DNA of 64,000 bases. Origin: Fibrobacter succinogenes. Its GTDB lineage: Bacteria; Fibrobacterota; Fibrobacteria; Fibrobacterales; Fibrobacteraceae. Positions 6,481 to 15,079 of the stretch are shown one piece after another. Both the position numbers and the translations under genes were made by a program. The notes below the pieces were generated by a model. The model was not told where the DNA came from. It saw nothing but the letters and a program-made list of their open reading frames with translations, and did not search any database. Location: positions 62,001 through 126,000 of the forward strand of contig CACZAD010000002.1 in the NCBI GenBank assembly GCA_902779055.1, in the 5' to 3' direction. Each line of letters starts with the position of its first letter. The first letter of the stretch is position 1.

Positions 6481-7722
6481 TTATTTTTCCGCTAAGCTTT
6501 CAAAAAGAGCGTAGCCTCGGGCAGCTTTCAACATATTCGTGGTGGTATCAACTTGAATACCAATAAAACCGGTATAAAGCCTCAAAGGAATCATTTCACC
6601 TAAATACTTCCATTCAATCCGTATCGAAGTCACACCTCTAGGAACATTATTAACATCCAGCTGTTCATTCCAATCCGGAGAATGCCTTTTATAAGCTCCA
6701 ATAGTTTCGTTTAAGTAATTGCTCTCGTTTATATCTAACCCTGTGTATGGGAAAAATCTAGAAATCCAACCGTTAAAGGTCACATTTCCACAAAATTCTG
6801 GAATGTAACGCTTGTATATTCCTCTCCAATGATCCATATTTATTTTGCCTTCAAAGACATTGATAAATTCATCAAGAACAGGATTAAGCCCAACAGCCCA
6901 CCAATCCATATCCAGACGCGATGCAAGTCTGTTAAAAGAATCCTTGAGCAAAATCCAGTCTTCTTTTTTACCATTTATCTTGATTTTGGGGATTCCGCAA
7001 AGCGTAGAAACCACATACTCGTAATATTCAGCAGCCACAGCCATGACCATCGCACTAGAAATGTTATAATCCACCGGACTTGTCGTCGAGAACTTTGTTT
7101 TCAATGGTAATCCAGTCTCTTCAGGCAACTTAGACTGCAATGCTTCAAACAAATTCGCAAGCGTCCAAAACCATTCATAATGCGTTGATTCGGTGGTCAG
7201 CGAATTGTCCTCAAAAGTAACTACAGTATCCGTTCCCGGAGTAACAAACTTATCTTTCAAAGCTTCGCGATTGCTTTTGACATGATAACGGAAACCATCC
7301 AAAATCATAAGCCAAATATCATCTGGATTTATTTCTAGGGAATAATGATTGGCAAACGCAAGTTCAACGACATCAAAGAATGATGATACATCAGAAGACA
7401 TTCCACTGATAAAGGGACTTATTGAATCAGAATACGCATAAAAAATCTTGCGTCCTCGTTCTTGTTTATTTTTAAAAAAATGTTCTGCAAAACCACCCTT
7501 TTCAACAGGAACAAGTTTCTCTTTAAAAGGTTTGCTTTGAACGCTAGAATCAACGATCATGACATACGCACTCGTATCGCGAACAAAGCCTTCGAAACCT
7601 TGCTTCACGTTCGAAGACAATTTGATGACATTTTCGTCTCCGCAAGAAGAGAGAACGCATGCGGTAAGGAGGAGGTAAAAGAATTTAGAAACGGAAATCT
7701 TCATTGTATTTTTCATCTTCAT
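6481..7722 (-). CDS. DUF4419 lipoprotein, short paralogue
   Basis: 413 residues from the ATG at 7722, chosen because GGAAG lies nine bases upstream; later in-frame ATGs are possible. Lipoprotein signal ends at LSSC. From about residue 95 it carries the DUF4419 core: NPDDIWLMILDGFRYHV, the TSPVDYN segment, and GIPKIKINGKKEDW followed by a WW...NPVLDEF helix. The start lies inside the 3' end of the larger paralogue (38-bp overlap), so the two are co-translated. Both share most of the core word for word, so this is a tandem duplication. DUF4419 function is unknown. Confidence 0.8.
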   Translation of the reverse strand: MKMKNTMKISVSKFFYLLLTACVLSSCGDENVIKLSSNVKQGFEGFVRDTSAYVMIVDSSVQSKPFKEKLVPVEKGGFAEHFFKNKQERGRKIFYAYSDSISPFISGMSSDVSSFFDVVELAFANHYSLEINPDDIWLMILDGFRYHVKSNREALKDKFVTPGTDTVVTFEDNSLTTESTHYEWFWTLANLFEALQSKLPEETGLPLKTKFSTTSPVDYNISSAMVMAVAAEYYEYVVSTLCGIPKIKINGKKEDWILLKDSFNRLASRLDMDWWAVGLNPVLDEFINVFEGKINMDHWRGIYKRYIPEFCGNVTFNGWISRFFPYTGLDINESNYLNETIGAYKRHSPDWNEQLDVNNVPRGVTSIRIEWKYLGEMIPLRLYTGFIGIQVDTTTNMLKAARGYALFESLAEK

Positions 7723-10108
7723 TGAGTTTTTCTTCCACAAAGCATGGCGGAATTTTAATCCTTACGACTTGCAATATCGAAAGGCGGCCATCATACATAG
7801 CGTCATACTTGTCAAAGCGGACGTTTGTATGTCTTGGCTCGATTTCTTCAGAGTGTACCCCGTACTTCACTTTTTTATTGTATTCAATACATTCATAACG
7901 GACAACGCCGCCAGTCGCAAGGTCTTTCGAGAACGTAATCTCGTTACAAAGATCTTTCTTTACATCTGGTCCGACAATATCGACAGAATCTTTAGCATTT
8001 CGCCCATTCTCCTTACAGACCATGCGGTAATTCCTTGTAAAAGTAAGATGAATCCAGACATAGTCGATAATATCTTGAGCGGTTTCTTCATTGCCGACAT
8101 CCGTACGAACTTTCGGCGGCATCCATCCGTAATACAAAATGTCACGAAGTTCTTTATCAAAAGCCTTATTTTTACTCTTACGAGACGCTGTACTCGCGGA
8201 CGGTAAAAATACAGAACCATCATCCTTATACGACAATGAGGCAAGACCAGATAAATTAAAATCTTCCTTATAATAGCGATACAACAACCTTTTGAGTCGC
8301 CAACCCATAGAATTATTCATTGCTCGGACAATTCCTGTTTTAAAAGCACGCATTTCTAGACCATCTCTAAGAGATTTTCCACTCTTAAGGAAAACTGAAT
8401 CCACAAAAATTTCGACATTCAATTTCGGGAGAGATTTTTCATTTTCAAATTCATTGACAGTCCCGCTTATAGGAATATCGCGTTCCTTAAAAAAATTCTT
8501 GATTGCAGCAGGCTTTTTCCATCGCCCAACGCCCTGCAACGAAAGCATAGCGCCATCATAATCCGAAGTTAAAAAATCGAGTACGCGCTCCTTGAATGTT
8601 TCCTTTCGAAGTTTCGCATAATAAAGCAAATGATCCACTAGCTTGCCATCTCGGTACAAATTGATAGATAGATTGGGTTCACCAACCCCGACCATTTCCC
8701 TACGCCACGATTCGGCTTCAGGATATTCTTCATCAAAGGAAGAAAATTCAGCAAATTCCTCTATTTCGTCAGCGTGATTAGTTGCATAAACCAAGCCTTT
8801 TTCCCCATAAATATTCATGGAATCCGAAAAGGCCAAAGATTCCACCAAGCGATATGCTTTTCCAGGAATATACTTTGTATTCCGAGCAACATTTTTTAAC
8901 TTTTGCATTTCATAAGAGACAAGAGCGTAACCTCTAGAAGCCTTCAACATATTATTTGTGGTATCCACCTGCATACCGATAAAACCGGTATAAAGTTTCA
9001 ATGGAATTATCTCCTGAAAGTATTCCCATCGGATATCTATAAAAGTAATTCCCCTAGGAACTTGTTTAAAATCTAATTTTTTATTCCAATCATTGCGTTT
9101 GATATATTTTTCCGTATCAGAATACAAATCTTTTGTATAAGGAAACAATCTTGAAATCCAGCCACTAAAATCAGGAGCGCCACAATCTTCAGGTTCGTAA
9201 TACTTATAAATATTTTTCCAATGTTTTAGATTTATTTTGCCATCATAAATATTGATAAACTCATCTAAAATAGGATTAAGTCCATCCGCCCACCATTTCA
9301 TATCCAACTGTGAAGCTAGTCTGTTAAAGGAATCCTTGAGTAAAGTCCAGTCCTCTTTTGTACCATTCACTTTTATTTTCGGAATTCCACAAAGCGTTGT
9401 AACCCTATACGAATAATATTCCGATGCCACAGCCATCGTCATCGTACGAGAAATATTTGCATCCACAGGGCTTGTCGTCGAAAATTTCGTTCGCAACGGA
9501 ACGCCCGTTTCTAGAGGCAACTTCGCCTGCAATGAATCAAACAGTTCCGAGAGCGTACAGAACCATTCCTTGTGCGTAGATTCTAGATTCAACGAATTAT
9601 CCATAACCGAGACCACAGTATCAGTACCCGGAGCTACAAAGCGGTCCTTGAGGGCTTTGCGATTGTTCTTGACATGTAGACGGAAGCCGTCTAAAATCAT
9701 AAGCCAGATATCGTCTGGATTTATTTCCATAGCATAGTGCTTAGCATATGCAAGAGCAACAAGATCAATGAAGGTCGGTTTTTCAGAAGAACCTTTAACA
9801 AACGGATTCACAGAATCGGAATACGCATAAAAAATTTTTTGCCCGTTCGTCCCCTTTTTCTCCGCTTCGTTTGCAAAATATTCTACGAAGCCACCTCTTT
9901 TTACATGAACAATTTTTTCGTTGAACACGCTATCACGAACGGTCGTATCGATGACCATAGCATAAGCACTTGTGTCGCGAACAAAGCCTTTGAAATTCCC
10001 AGTCGGTTTCGAAGAAATTTCAATCACCGGCTCATCACGTTTCTGTTCGCAAGAGAGCAGAACGCATACGGCAAGGAAAAAGAAAAATAATTTGTAAAGG
10101 CTATGCAT
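7685..10108 (-). CDS. DUF4419 lipoprotein, long paralogue
   Basis: 807 residues, lipobox LLSC at about 19-20. Residues 30-410 are a DUF4419 domain nearly collinear with the downstream short copy (NPDDIWLMILDGFRLHV, TSPVDAN, GIPKIKVNGTKEDW). Residues about 420-807 are an extra region absent from the short copy, Lys/Glu-rich, with no motif I recognise; it includes a predicted ETAQDIIDYVW helix and several isolated cysteines. Base composition is more AT-rich than in the housekeeping genes. Likely outer-surface or periplasmic. No function is assigned. Confidence 0.8.
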   Translation of the reverse strand: MHSLYKLFFFFLAVCVLLSCEQKRDEPVIEISSKPTGNFKGFVRDTSAYAMVIDTTVRDSVFNEKIVHVKRGGFVEYFANEAEKKGTNGQKIFYAYSDSVNPFVKGSSEKPTFIDLVALAYAKHYAMEINPDDIWLMILDGFRLHVKNNRKALKDRFVAPGTDTVVSVMDNSLNLESTHKEWFCTLSELFDSLQAKLPLETGVPLRTKFSTTSPVDANISRTMTMAVASEYYSYRVTTLCGIPKIKVNGTKEDWTLLKDSFNRLASQLDMKWWADGLNPILDEFINIYDGKINLKHWKNIYKYYEPEDCGAPDFSGWISRLFPYTKDLYSDTEKYIKRNDWNKKLDFKQVPRGITFIDIRWEYFQEIIPLKLYTGFIGMQVDTTNNMLKASRGYALVSYEMQKLKNVARNTKYIPGKAYRLVESLAFSDSMNIYGEKGLVYATNHADEIEEFAEFSSFDEEYPEAESWRREMVGVGEPNLSINLYRDGKLVDHLLYYAKLRKETFKERVLDFLTSDYDGAMLSLQGVGRWKKPAAIKNFFKERDIPISGTVNEFENEKSLPKLNVEIFVDSVFLKSGKSLRDGLEMRAFKTGIVRAMNNSMGWRLKRLLYRYYKEDFNLSGLASLSYKDDGSVFLPSASTASRKSKNKAFDKELRDILYYGWMPPKVRTDVGNEETAQDIIDYVWIHLTFTRNYRMVCKENGRNAKDSVDIVGPDVKKDLCNEITFSKDLATGGVVRYECIEYNKKVKYGVHSEEIEPRHTNVRFDKYDAMYDGRLSILQVVRIKIPPCFVEEKLNEDEKYNEDFRF

Positions 10109-11381: not shown

Positions 11382-12245
11382 TCACTTTACCAAAGCAAGC
11401 AACTGTTCCTTGGTCACAAGGTTCAGTACCGAAAACGCCGTCATTTTACAGCCTAAATCCATAATCGAGGCCCCAACATGATATACAGTTTCGTCAACAA
11501 TGATAAATCTGTCGTGAACATCACGCATTGTCCGCAATACAACAGTCGGAAATTGCCGATTTATGCGGTCAACTTCATCGTTCATCGCACGCGTAATTCG
11601 AGCGGAATAAATGACGGCATTGACACCAGCAACTCGTTTTGCAACAAGCGAAAGCGATGTATCATTAGCAAACGGATCTATGATTATGATTTCTTTTTTC
11701 GCGGAGCGAACTAATTGCACTGCAAATTCATAACCGCTCCAACGAGCATTAGCTGGTATAACGCCCTCGCTAGGTGGAAGATTTGCTTTGACAAAGAAGT
11801 CCACCTGTTTTTCAAGGTTAACAACACGAGAATCCAAATTCTCGAGTTTATTTTCTTGAGAAATCAATCGTTGGTTAACACTATACCCCTTAAGCAAATG
11901 CTCTTTGAGAACTTGGTTCGCCCACCGACGGAATTGTGTACCTTGGATAGATTTTACTCGATACCCGACAGAAATGATGACATCGAGATTGTAGAAATTT
12001 GTAGGTTTGGTAGAAAAATCGGAATTTCCGATTTTTCTTACCGATTCATTTTTCAATATTTCACCCTCAGATAGGGCATTTAATATATGCTCGTTTATAG
12101 TTGAACGAGATTTCCCAAAAAGAAGAGCCATTTGATCAATCGTCAGCCATACTGTTTCGTTTTCAACTCGTACAGGCAACTGAATAGCACCTTCAGGCTG
12201 GTACATGATAATTTCACCATCTAATGATAAATTCTTCTTATTCAT
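11382..12245 (-). CDS. RhuM-like protein with C-terminal PLD-like domain
   Basis: 287 residues with a strong GGAGG four bases before ATG. Residues 15-125 match the RhuM virulence family: VWLTIDQMALLFGKSRSTI, NFYNLDVIISVGYRV and FRRWANQVLKEH. A short coiled coil (130-155) leads into a C-terminal domain with IIIIDPFAN and HDRFIIVD (244-251), a phospholipase-D-type HxRx4D motif, then YHVGASIMDLG. The RhuM part resembles phage/antirepressor DNA-binding domains; the PLD-like part could be a nuclease. A defence or selfish-element role is inferred, not shown. It is isolated, with a terminator just upstream. Confidence 0.75.
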   Translation of the reverse strand: MNKKNLSLDGEIIMYQPEGAIQLPVRVENETVWLTIDQMALLFGKSRSTINEHILNALSEGEILKNESVRKIGNSDFSTKPTNFYNLDVIISVGYRVKSIQGTQFRRWANQVLKEHLLKGYSVNQRLISQENKLENLDSRVVNLEKQVDFFVKANLPPSEGVIPANARWSGYEFAVQLVRSAKKEIIIIDPFANDTSLSLVAKRVAGVNAVIYSARITRAMNDEVDRINRQFPTVVLRTMRDVHDRFIIVDETVYHVGASIMDLGCKMTAFSVLNLVTKEQLLALVK

Positions 12246-12349: not shown

Positions 12350-12387
12350 AAAAAAAAGCCGCCCCCGCGGTAAAGCAGGAAGCGGAT
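12350..12387 (-). terminator. Terminator after the radical SAM gene
   Basis: On the minus strand ATCCGC(TT)CCTGC-TTTAC-CGCGG-GGGCGG forms a nested stem followed by seven T. The arrangement is nearly the same as the terminator at 15038-15079, so the RiPP-like cassette is bracketed by related hairpins in the same orientation. Confidence 0.75.
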
Positions 12388-12412
12388 TTACTACATAACG
12401 CAACAAAGCTAT

Positions 12413-13873
12413 TTACTTGCTTGCGTATGCAGCTTTTGCAGCCATGTCTGATGTCATATATCTGAGATCTTGTATAAGATTCGGATCCTGACCTCCGGAC
12501 AGCGAAACGGCCTCTTGCATAACGCGCAAGCCTTCTTCAGCCTGCCCGAGTCGATACAAGGCCAAAGCACGACCACCCATAGCATAAGTATCCATGCTAT
12601 TGATGTTCAAGGCCTTCTCGTTTGCTTCAAGGCACGATTCATAGTTGCCGCACATGAATTCGCTGTAGCCAATCGCCCTGTAAACATCGGCGTTATTGGG
12701 TTCCAGTTCTTGCGCACGCTTCAAAGCAAAGGAGGCTTCTTGGTAATTGCCCTGAGGAATCAATGCTTCGGCCAGTTTGAGCAAAGCAGAAGCACTGTCG
12801 CACTTGCCATACTTTGTTTCCTTTTCCTTTAGAGAAAGGTTGTATGCGCAATATTCATTTTCCTCATAAATGCTACCCTTCATCGTAAGACGCGTATTCG
12901 GGCAGCCGCCAAGGCACTTGGAACCATAAATACACTTTTTGCAAGAGCCAGAAAGTTTATCCTTTGTCATCTGGCGACGCCACAAGAAAGCATTTTCATC
13001 TTCCCAAATTTCACGTAGCTTTCTTTCGCGGATATTCCCTTCGATGAATTCCTTGGAACGAATCGAAGTACAGCCCAGAATATCACCGTTATGCAAAATT
13101 CCAAAACCGCGAATGCCCGCATTGCAGCCATTCCACAAGGAATAACCATTTGTCTTGTAGGACATACGCCTTGTTTCGAGGTCCTTCATTGAATAGTATC
13201 CAATACAATCCGCAGGATAGATATCGATCCTACCCTCTTTTGCCGTATCGTAGCAAAAATCAATGATATCCCTGACCTGTCTCGGTTCAAGGAGCCAATC
13301 AGGGCGTTCCTTTAAATTGCCCATAGGCAAACCGAGTTGAACCTGCCACGTGTCAACACCCATACGGATAAGTTCTTCCTTCAATTGCGGAAGAATATCC
13401 ATATTCTGCTTCGTAATCGTCGTGACGGCACCGGTCTTTATTCCCAATTCCTTCATCGCGGCGAAGGCCTGCCTTGCATGTTCAAAGGCACCTTTTTTCC
13501 TGATCTTATCATGGATTTCGGGCGTTCCGTCAATGCTTATCGCAACCGTGGCAATCCCATTCTCTTTTAACTTTTTTGCCATTTTTGCGTCAAGGAGCCA
13601 ACCGTTCGTGATCATATTCACGATGACGCCATTGCCAGAAAGACGTTTCACCAGTTCAGGCGTATCCTGTCTCGTAAGAGGTTCGCCTCCAGACAAGGTA
13701 ATCCATTTCAGTCCAATTTCAGCAATCTGATCACACAAATCAAGAGCTTCCTCGGTACTCAACTGTCCCGGGAGAGCGCCTTCACAAGAAGAACCACAAT
13801 GCCCACAGCGAAAGTTGCAGCCCATCGTTACTTCCCAGACTGCAGTGATGGGCTGATACCCAATATTTGCCAT
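12413..13873 (-). CDS. Radical SAM/SPASM enzyme with C-terminal TPRs (peptide maturase candidate)
   Basis: 486 residues. The radical SAM cluster site is C19-x3-C23-x2-C26, with SGGEP (61-64 region) for SAM binding. A full SPASM domain follows: C250, C268 (after G-x4), then C311-x2-C314-x5-C320-x3-C324, and C342, sites for auxiliary 4Fe-4S clusters. Residues 360-460 form about three TPRs, unusual for this class. No PqqD/RRE-like leader-binding domain is seen at the N-terminus, so the TPRs may hold the substrate (inference). It is 69 bp downstream of the KYGYPC repeat gene, its likely substrate, and has its own ribosome site (AGAGG, six T, ATG). Confidence 0.85.
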   Translation of the reverse strand: MANIGYQPITAVWEVTMGCNFRCGHCGSSCEGALPGQLSTEEALDLCDQIAEIGLKWITLSGGEPLTRQDTPELVKRLSGNGVIVNMITNGWLLDAKMAKKLKENGIATVAISIDGTPEIHDKIRKKGAFEHARQAFAAMKELGIKTGAVTTITKQNMDILPQLKEELIRMGVDTWQVQLGLPMGNLKERPDWLLEPRQVRDIIDFCYDTAKEGRIDIYPADCIGYYSMKDLETRRMSYKTNGYSLWNGCNAGIRGFGILHNGDILGCTSIRSKEFIEGNIRERKLREIWEDENAFLWRRQMTKDKLSGSCKKCIYGSKCLGGCPNTRLTMKGSIYEENEYCAYNLSLKEKETKYGKCDSASALLKLAEALIPQGNYQEASFALKRAQELEPNNADVYRAIGYSEFMCGNYESCLEANEKALNINSMDTYAMGGRALALYRLGQAEEGLRVMQEAVSLSGGQDPNLIQDLRYMTSDMAAKAAYASK

Positions 13874-13885
13874 AAAAAACCTCTA

Positions 13886-13920
13886 AACAGCCTGCCAGCA
13901 TTCATGGCCAGCAGGCTGTT
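13886..13920 (-). promoter_or_regulatory. Intercistronic hairpin between precursor and maturase
   Basis: Perfect 10-bp stem AACAGCCTGC / GCAGGCTGTT with a 15-base loop, just after the precursor stop codon. On the minus strand it is followed by TAGAGG and six T, so the U-run overlaps the ribosome site of the next gene. It looks like a leaky terminator or 3' mRNA stabiliser that would make much more precursor than enzyme, as in many RiPP operons. Confidence 0.7.
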
Positions 13921-13942
13921 TTGATTATGTATTCTGATTTAT

Positions 13943-14887
13943 TTAACAGTCAGACTTCTGCGAATCGCACTTGAAGCCGTACATAAAAGCAGCGTCTTTT
14001 TTCGACGTAGCATCTTGAACGCCGCAAGGATAACCATACTTCATCAAAGCCTGATCATTAGTGCCACAGGGATAGCCGTACTTCAAGGCTGCATCCTGCA
14101 CACCGCACGGGTAACCATACTTCAAGGCTGCGTCATTTGTGCAGCTCTTGAAACCGTATGCCATGGCAGCTTCCCTATTCGATGCAGCATCCTGAACGCC
14201 GCAAGGATAGCCGTACTTCATCAAAGGCAGTTCGCTTGTACCGCAGGGATAGCCGTACTTCAAAGCAGCTTCTCGATTCAAAGATGCGTCATTTGCGCCA
14301 CAGGGGTAACCATACTTCAAAGCGACATCCTGAACGCCACAAGGATACCCATACTTCACTACAGGAACTTCGCTTGTGTTGCAGGGATAACCGTACTTCA
14401 TCAAGGGAGCGTCATTTACACCACAAGGATAGCCATACTTCATCAGGGGAACTTCACTTGTGCTGCAAGGATAACCGTACTTCACAACAGCTTCTTGCGA
14501 ACCGAGAACAAGGCCATAAGGCATAGCCGGGCTGCTGACAGCTCTGATTGTTGCGTCAGTGTTTTCGCTAAACTTTGCAAATTCTTCGGAATCGCTCGGA
14601 ATCACATTCAGAAGCACGGTGTGCGTCTTTTTCGTAGCGGACATATCCGTCAAGTTTACCAGCGTGAATTCAAGTTCGGACTTGTCTTCCGTTGCGGAAA
14701 CAGCACCAAACCAGAATTTCTGGATAACGGGCGCAACCCCTGCTGCGGTCGGAGTAGTTTCTGTACTCAGCAGAGCAATTCCCTGCGGGAGCTTGGTCAG
14801 AGTCCAACCATAATTTGTGGAACCAAACATTGATTGCAGTTCAATCGAGAAGGATTGACCCTGTAATACAACCATTTCTTTTGCCAT
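13943..14887 (-). CDS. Multi-core precursor-like protein with ten KYGYPC repeats
   Basis: 314 residues, no signal peptide; AGAGG six bases before ATG. Residues 1-100 contain no Cys and resemble a chagasin/I42 beta-sandwich (GQSFSIELQSMFG, NYGWTL, QKFWFGAV), although the protease-binding loops are poor matches. Residues 136-307 hold ten KYGYPC copies at 136, 150, 164, 178, 191, 210, 224, 256, 269 and 283, plus variants AYGFKSC (243), MYGFKC (302) and a degenerate PYG (123). Spacing is 13-14, or 19 where NREAA is inserted. All 13 cysteines are in the repeats, and each KYGYPC Cys is followed by Asp/Glu at +4. Most likely a RiPP precursor for the adjacent radical SAM enzyme; a structural repeat protein is the alternative. 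Confidence 0.75.
   Translation of the reverse strand: MAKEMVVLQGQSFSIELQSMFGSTNYGWTLTKLPQGIALLSTETTPTAAGVAPVIQKFWFGAVSATEDKSELEFTLVNLTDMSATKKTHTVLLNVIPSDSEEFAKFSENTDATIRAVSSPAMPYGLVLGSQEAVVKYGYPCSTSEVPLMKYGYPCGVNDAPLMKYGYPCNTSEVPVVKYGYPCGVQDVALKYGYPCGANDASLNREAALKYGYPCGTSELPLMKYGYPCGVQDAASNREAAMAYGFKSCTNDAALKYGYPCGVQDAALKYGYPCGTNDQALMKYGYPCGVQDATSKKDAAFMYGFKCDSQKSDC
13967..14482 (-). repeat. Tandem 13-14-codon repeats encoding KYGYPC units
   Basis: Twelve tandem units of 39-42 bases (57 where an insert occurs). Lys is always AAG, but the Tyr, Gly, Tyr, Pro and Cys codons vary (TAT/TAC, GGT/GGC/GGG, CCT/CCC/CCG, TGC/TGT) so that all ten copies of the hexapeptide have a different DNA sequence and the same protein sequence. 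Confidence 0.9.
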
Positions 14888-14988
14888 AAAATACCTCTTT
14901 TTGGTGAATTATTGGAAATTCATCATTTATGTTAAAAATTTATTCTATGGTTAGCTAATTGTAATAAAAATATAACATAACTTTGTAG

Positions 14989-15017
14989 AAAATACTTTGT
15001 TAAGCAAAACATGTAAA
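14989..15017 (-). promoter_or_regulatory. Candidate promoter of the KYGYPC cassette
   Basis: Minus-strand TTTACA (15017-15012) and TATTTT (14994-14989) separated by exactly 17 bases in an AT-rich stretch, giving a 5' leader of roughly 95 bases before the precursor ATG. It lies between the upstream terminator and the gene, so the cassette seems to have its own transcription start. Confidence 0.5.
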
Positions 15018-15037
15018 GTATTAATAACAAGCTATAT

Positions 15038-15079
15038 AAAAAAAATCCGCCCCTGCGTAAAGCAGAAAGCGGATTTTTC
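15038..15079 (-). terminator. Terminator after purL
   Basis: AAAAATCCGC / GCGGATTTTT outer stem with a nested CTGC-TTTAC-GCAG inner stem and a run of eight T on the minus strand. It insulates the KYGYPC cassette from purL and is homologous to the terminator at the other end of that cassette. Confidence 0.8.

Follow-up and report, generated by a model that had tools for sequence, protein, structure and literature searches.

Splicing of the PlpX type consists of the excision of tyramine at X-Tyr-Gly (XYG) sites, with 135.07 Da lost per site, and PlpX works with a partner, PlpY, that resembles the recognition element (RRE) of ribosomally synthesized and post-translationally modified peptide (RiPP) pathways. 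PlpX products have been shown to undergo tetrazine ligation, and in a splicease survey by Scott et al. (2022, Chem) spliceotides were reportedly widespread. The family in question is IPR026482, which we take to be the same as TIGR04103 (nif11-class peptide radical SAM maturase 3; SAM, S-adenosylmethionine). PlpX belongs to IPR026482 (PMC11002830), and PlpXY splices at MYG and LYG as well as at engineered GYG sites, may do so several times in one precursor and can dispense with the leader (PMC10533398, PMC10373908). Spliceotides have been described as protease inhibitors. Here we describe a two-gene system in a 64,000-nucleotide stretch of DNA from a rumen bacterium, Fibrobacter succinogenes (contig CACZAD010000002.1, positions 62,001 to 126,000; hereafter the window), in which a precursor with an array of XYG sites is encoded beside a radical SAM/SPASM enzyme with a tetratricopeptide repeat (TPR) tail. 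On the strength of sequence comparisons and predicted structures, we think it probable that this enzyme is a splicease-type radical SAM/SPASM protein from a TPR-tailed, RRE-less clade and that it makes multi-ketoamide proteins, possibly protease inhibitors. The elements of the pair, at their positions in the window, are:

13943..14887, minus strand: precursor or substrate protein, 314 residues; an open reading frame (ORF) whose homologues adjoin the enzyme gene in 10 Fibrobacter genomes and in 33 of 47 wider loci
14600..14887, minus strand: N-terminal domain (head) of the precursor, residues 1-96, predicted seven-strand chagasin (I42) fold, from an AlphaFold2 model and its Protein Data Bank (PDB) matches
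13976..14521, minus strand: array of 13 XYG sites in residues 123-304 of the precursor (PYG at Tyr 124, ten KYGYPC units, AYG at 244 and MYG at 303)
12413..13873, minus strand: radical SAM/SPASM enzyme with TPR tail, 486 residues, proposed TPR-tailed splicease
13391..13834, minus strand: radical SAM domain of the enzyme, residues 14-161, with CxxxCxxC at 19/23/26 (Pfam PF04055 over cut-off, E 6.9e-27; Cys invariant)
13316..13348, minus strand: signature WQVQLGLPMGN of the enzyme, residues 176-186, common to PlpX-type and GDL maturases by alignment
12839..13135, minus strand: SPASM auxiliary-cluster domain of the enzyme, residues 247-345, seven Cys (Pfam PF13186 over cut-off, E 1.6e-8; Cys invariant)
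12500..12793, minus strand: TPR tail of the enzyme, residues 361-458 (Pfam TPR_2 and TPR_14 over cut-off; all-helical in the predicted model)

The enzyme has the radical SAM motif and SPASM cluster Cys that characterize PlpX, and C19, C23 and C26 together with C250, C268, C311, C314, C320, C324 and C342 are invariant across 28 homologues. Among the 93 NCBIfam families it matched, TIGR04103 scored best (228.6 bits, residues 10-344), followed by TIGR03913, the GDL maturase model, at 199.8 bits. Alignment revealed that W-Q-x-Q-x3-(P/A)-M-G-N and G-Y-(Y/F) are common to the window family, the GDL maturases and a plasmid-encoded Nostoc enzyme that we used as a control (853 bits, a true TIGR04103 member); the former motif is present in the extracted members of the enzyme family, as an MGS variant in two. 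Both motifs were missing from 20 other Fibrobacteraceae radical SAM/SPASM proteins caught by the same model, the one of these that was family-scanned being a TIGR04133 protein. The window family joins the PlpX-type and GDL enzymes in a tree, apart from the other Fibrobacteraceae radical SAM/SPASM proteins (support 100/100). The AlphaFold2 model of the enzyme (mean pLDDT 91.9) comprises a barrel, the SPASM domain and the helical TPR tail, and its PDB neighbours are PqqE, SkfB, SuiB and anSME, a general radical SAM/SPASM outcome.

The two systems also resemble each other in having an XYG substrate encoded nearby in which multiple sites can occur. However, whereas PlpX substrates are nif11 or NHLP peptides with one or a few sites, as in the Nostoc locus, where a nif11 precursor ends in IALYGLPPELF and a 71-residue gene is a candidate for PlpY, Fibrobacter has 10-20 sites on a protein with the I42 fold. 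The GDL maturases, with which the signature motifs are shared, differ in having another C-terminal tail and short, non-repetitive DUF1843 substrates. Of two such peptides encoded beside TIGR03913-type maturases, one (L113:3037-3222, Azospirillum) carries MLYGG near its N-terminus and the other (L112:3159-3329, Aureibacter) carries VLYAA in the same region, that is, LYA rather than LYG; the GDL maturases may thus also be Tyr-directed, splicease-like enzymes.

An initial annotation of the window had described ten KYGYPC units, Cys in the repeats but none in the 135-residue N-terminal part, and a radical SAM/SPASM neighbour, all of which the ORFs and Pfam matches bear out. Exact units lie at residues 136, 150, 164, 178, 191, 210, 224, 256, 269 and 283, and the 13 Cys are found between residues 141 and 314, with none N-terminal to 141. 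No two of the ten units share a DNA sequence, and all differences among these ten versions are synonymous, so the KYGYPC peptide is under selection and not a product of recent DNA slippage. As a definition of the repeat, however, KYGYPC holds only in part: the ten copies are there, but the unit is wider, as PYG, AYG and MYG complete the 13 sites and two of these three lack a Cys at the position it has in KYGYPC. YG occurs 13 times in the 192-residue core against 2.6 times expected (2000 shuffles, maximum 9).

The initial annotation also proposed that a ranthipeptide-like enzyme, akin to the freyrasin-type maturase PapB (NF047865), links each KYGYPC Cys by a thioether to the Asp or Glu four residues on. 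Some features of the window pair favor the proposal: Asp or Glu does follow at +4 in 10/10 units, CX3[DE] occurs 10 times against 1.2 in shuffles, and the enzyme shares the radical SAM/SPASM architecture of PapB, including a full set of auxiliary Cys. The relatives of the precursor nevertheless argue against it. Ten Fibrobacter precursors contain 140 YG units (10-20 each), in which X is Lys in 74% and a Cys stands at Y+4 in 70%, and nearly all of their core Tyr lie inside YG or YGY. In the two congeneric precursors L007 and L009, whose enzymes are 85-86% identical to the window enzyme, Cys is present in 2/10 and 1/12 units, and CX3D/E in 2/10 and 0/12, respectively. Across 36 enzyme-linked precursors with 316 units, Tyr-Gly is constant, a constancy that is itself partly built in by a scan anchored on YG, but Cys is found at Y+4 in only 56% (178), followed by Asp or Glu at +4 in 117 of these 178. 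Eight of the 36 have no YG..C unit, and L102, L104 and L093 are devoid of Cys altogether, yet Tyr-Gly is kept. In addition, the PapB model gave the enzyme 74.3 bits, below its cut-off of 340 and well short of the 228 bits for TIGR04103. We therefore rejected thioether formation, which we now consider quite improbable.

The scaffolds that carry XYG are of at least four kinds with no relation to one another: I42-like proteins, SLH proteins, dockerin proteins and short Gly-Gly leader peptides. In particular, the Cys-free L102 is a ComC-type Gly-Gly peptide with KYG and MYG repeats, and the motif is also kept in precursors L104, L095, L099 and L103. ORFs with at least two YG[VFYIL][PAV] motifs account for 41 of 2022 in the 47 loci and adjoin the enzyme in 39 of the loci. 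A dockerin protein (L091:4397-4999) and two SLH proteins (L092:4026-4973 and L093:4195-4983) from Defluviitaleaceae and Oscillospiraceae metagenome-assembled genomes carry XYG(F)P beside the enzyme, and possibly undergo backbone modification as secreted surface proteins. In the precursor-like protein L110:6515-7231, IYAYP (YAYP) repeats replace most XYG.

The gene pair is inherited as a unit. Clear matches to the precursor were present in 10/111 Fibrobacteraceae genomes, and enzyme orthologues (84-100% identity) had exactly this distribution, being absent from all other genomes of the set and always adjoining the precursor gene; a further, weak precursor match (L011, E 8e-4) has no XYG array, and phylum-wide, among 168 genomes, the same 10 were the only carriers. 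The RiPP-like co-occurrence of substrate and enzyme that the initial annotation had anticipated is thus seen in relatives. These observations bear on whether the precursor might be a structural or metal-binding repeat protein, with the adjoining enzyme acting on something else. Such a protein might well have Cys-rich tandem repeats and an I42-fold head that forms a complete domain, and the two-gene Fibrobacter unit has no exporter, protease or regulator; the perfect co-occurrence in 10/111 genomes and the persistence of XYG beside the enzyme on unrelated scaffolds in other phyla, Cys-free ones included, make it very improbable.

We favor a splicease because XYG is kept on unrelated scaffolds beside the enzyme, and because the enzyme is kin to PlpX-type enzymes by best model, shared motifs and tree. 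Several observations weigh against this assignment. The score of 228.6 bits is below the TIGR04103 cut-off of 725, a cut-off that no protein in the 111 Fibrobacteraceae genomes reached, and in the tree the window family forms a clade separate from PlpX with a long branch between them; the chemistry may for these reasons have diverged from that of PlpX. The tree itself calls for caution, since long branches meet in it where the Nostoc/GDL group joins the outgroup. PlpY was not found here: there is no conserved small partner gene, and the Nostoc candidate PlpY as query gave only noise (E 0.8-7.5); a very divergent partner, or one at another place in the genome, may exist. Pro, Cys and Asp or Glu are frequent after YGY in many repeats, and splicing does not require them. 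Finally, no published example of KYG splicing was found in the literature searched. (Searches for chagasin or YGYP combined with radical SAM likewise found nothing.)

A different reaction at Tyr in XYG(Y/F/V)P, for instance a cross-link (cyclophane or ether) or a decarboxylation, with no excision of tyramine, would account for some of these points: a reaction of any kind aimed at Tyr would fit the constancy of Tyr-Gly, PlpX lies outside the clade, and the residue at +2 is hydrophobic (Y/F/V/L) with Pro frequent at +3. However, across the 36 precursors +2 varies among Y, F, V, L and I, and +3 varies as well, hence no constant cross-link partner is apparent; moreover, all three related clades keep X-Tyr-Gly (with an occasional YA), as PlpX requires. 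We consider such chemistry unlikely, though less so than either thioethers or a structural role.

The initial annotation had called the N-terminal part of the precursor chagasin-like, and structure prediction agrees. The head model has a mean pLDDT of 77.6, with blocks within residues 11-100 at means of ~80-92, and it has two PDB matches under E 0.001, both I42-type inhibitors (EhICP2, 3m88, E 2.6e-5; amebosin, E 8.8e-4), with chagasin entries next (E 0.006-0.009). The window head scores 19.9 bits against Pfam I42 (PF09394; cut-off 27.2); that of the Thiodiazotropha orthologue L096, 42% identical to it, scores 34.8 bits, above the cut-off, and 8/30 orthologous heads have an I42 match (E up to 0.1). 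The precursor head is accordingly predicted to have the chagasin (I42) fold. Of the inhibitory loops of this family of cysteine peptidase inhibitors (NPTTGY/GxGG/RPW), by-eye alignment found only a BC-loop-like GSTNYGW in the Fibrobacter head, with GxGG and RPW not kept; L096 has APW. The window protein differs from the family in this respect and in being fused to an XYG array, and it is doubtful that the Fibrobacter head itself inhibits papain, because the classical RPW loop cannot be made out there.

No RRE gene was found, nor an RRE inside the enzyme, where only the helical TPR tail follows SPASM in the predicted model. The earlier suggestion that the TPRs take the place of an RRE is thus borne out as far as their presence goes; that the tail replaces the PlpY/RRE partner is something that may be so. 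TPR_2 matched 22/28 members of the enzyme family, and the tail is shorter in L095, L097, L103 and L105. A TPR-less relative (L111:4986-6140; 49% identical) is encoded on an Agathobacter rectalis plasmid, 3' of rpsG, fusA and tuf; no XYG peptide was seen in its neighbourhood.

If the enzyme is a splicease, it would excise a backbone piece at XYG sites and leave ketoamides, at up to 13 mostly Lys-derived sites in the window precursor, with the head and/or the TPR tail guiding the substrate in place of an RRE. The chagasin-fold head would then carry a tail of up to 13 ketoamides in the window strain, and the product could serve as a multi-warhead protease inhibitor with Lys at a P1-like position. 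As no signal peptide was apparent on inspection of the precursor by eye, the product may act inside the cell in Fibrobacter; SLH or dockerin members may act at the surface. More tentatively, and at a level of confidence somewhat short of even, we envisage a large gut and rumen clade of TPR-tailed, RRE-independent spliceases that installs up to ~20 alpha-ketoamide warheads per folded chagasin-fold carrier, and elsewhere modifies S-layer-anchored or dockerin surface proteins, yielding multi-warhead inhibitors or reactive surface proteins. A TPR-tailed clade without PlpY, with an I42-fold, multi-XYG substrate, looks different from the known spliceotide systems.

A scan of GTDB genomes identified 47 related loci, mostly in Lachnospiraceae, the taxa being Fibrobacter, Butyrivibrio, Kineothrix, Faecalicatena, other Lachnospiraceae, Oscillospiraceae, Defluviitaleaceae, Bacteroides ihuae and Thiodiazotropha. 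Butyrivibrio enzymes are 80-82% identical to the window enzyme, and the Fibrobacter enzymes nest within Lachnospiraceae beside those of Butyrivibrio (100/100), which suggests horizontal transfer of the pair into part of the genus Fibrobacter; we infer the direction to be from gut Lachnospiraceae.

Two hairpins flank the enzyme gene:

13885..13921, minus strand: strong hairpin of 15 pairs with a U-rich tail, between the precursor and enzyme genes
12362..12381, minus strand: terminator-like hairpin 3' of the enzyme gene, at the end of the two-gene unit

The RNA of the gap between the genes has a folding energy of -26.1 kcal/mol. Because hairpins of differing sequence keep the same intergenic place in other Fibrobacter loci, this one is likely an attenuator that keeps expression of the enzyme below that of the precursor. 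Further along the minus strand, a RhuM-family (PF13310) protein (11382-12245) adjoins the system, and two adjacent DUF4419 genes (6481-10108) form overlapping ORFs (6481-7740 and 7685-10108), the longer with a lipoprotein-like start. Divergent genes upstream of the pair at L072:975-3965 (minus strand), and at ten further Lachnospiraceae loci of this kind, encode a two-component system (LytTR response regulator and GHKL kinase) and a protein with weak similarity to C92, the permuted papain-like amidases (best E 0.00045, below cut-off). The C92-like protein is possibly a target or a processing enzyme; as a general partner we rejected it, since it is confined to ~11 Lachnospiraceae loci and no match to C92 was found in the Fibrobacter genome.

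Other assignments were discarded. Membership in the FibroRumin system (TIGR04136), raised by the initial annotation and known from the same host group, was excluded, in that a TIGR04136 search of the window's own genome lists four other genes and not the window enzyme even at E 10. A Pfam XylR_N match on the precursor is an artefact limited to 23 residues in a single repeat, a match to the ACGX repeat peptide (TIGR04341; 9.4 bits, E 1.6) is due to chance, and the precursor has no tblastn match in 50,697 phage records that would indicate a phage origin.

The repeats invite an interpretation as thioether units, and the analysis corrects that understandable error. It also raises the question of whether the products are inhibitors of cellular proteases: the predicted fold of their carrier is one known from inhibitors of cysteine proteases, and a candidate papain-like (C92) protein is encoded near some of the Lachnospiraceae loci. 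If our interpretation is right, backbone-spliced beta-amino acid proteins would be made in the rumen and gut, substrate recognition in this splicease clade would not depend on the customary RRE partner, one protein could be spliced at many sites, and single-gene tools might become available to place many ketoamides in proteins.

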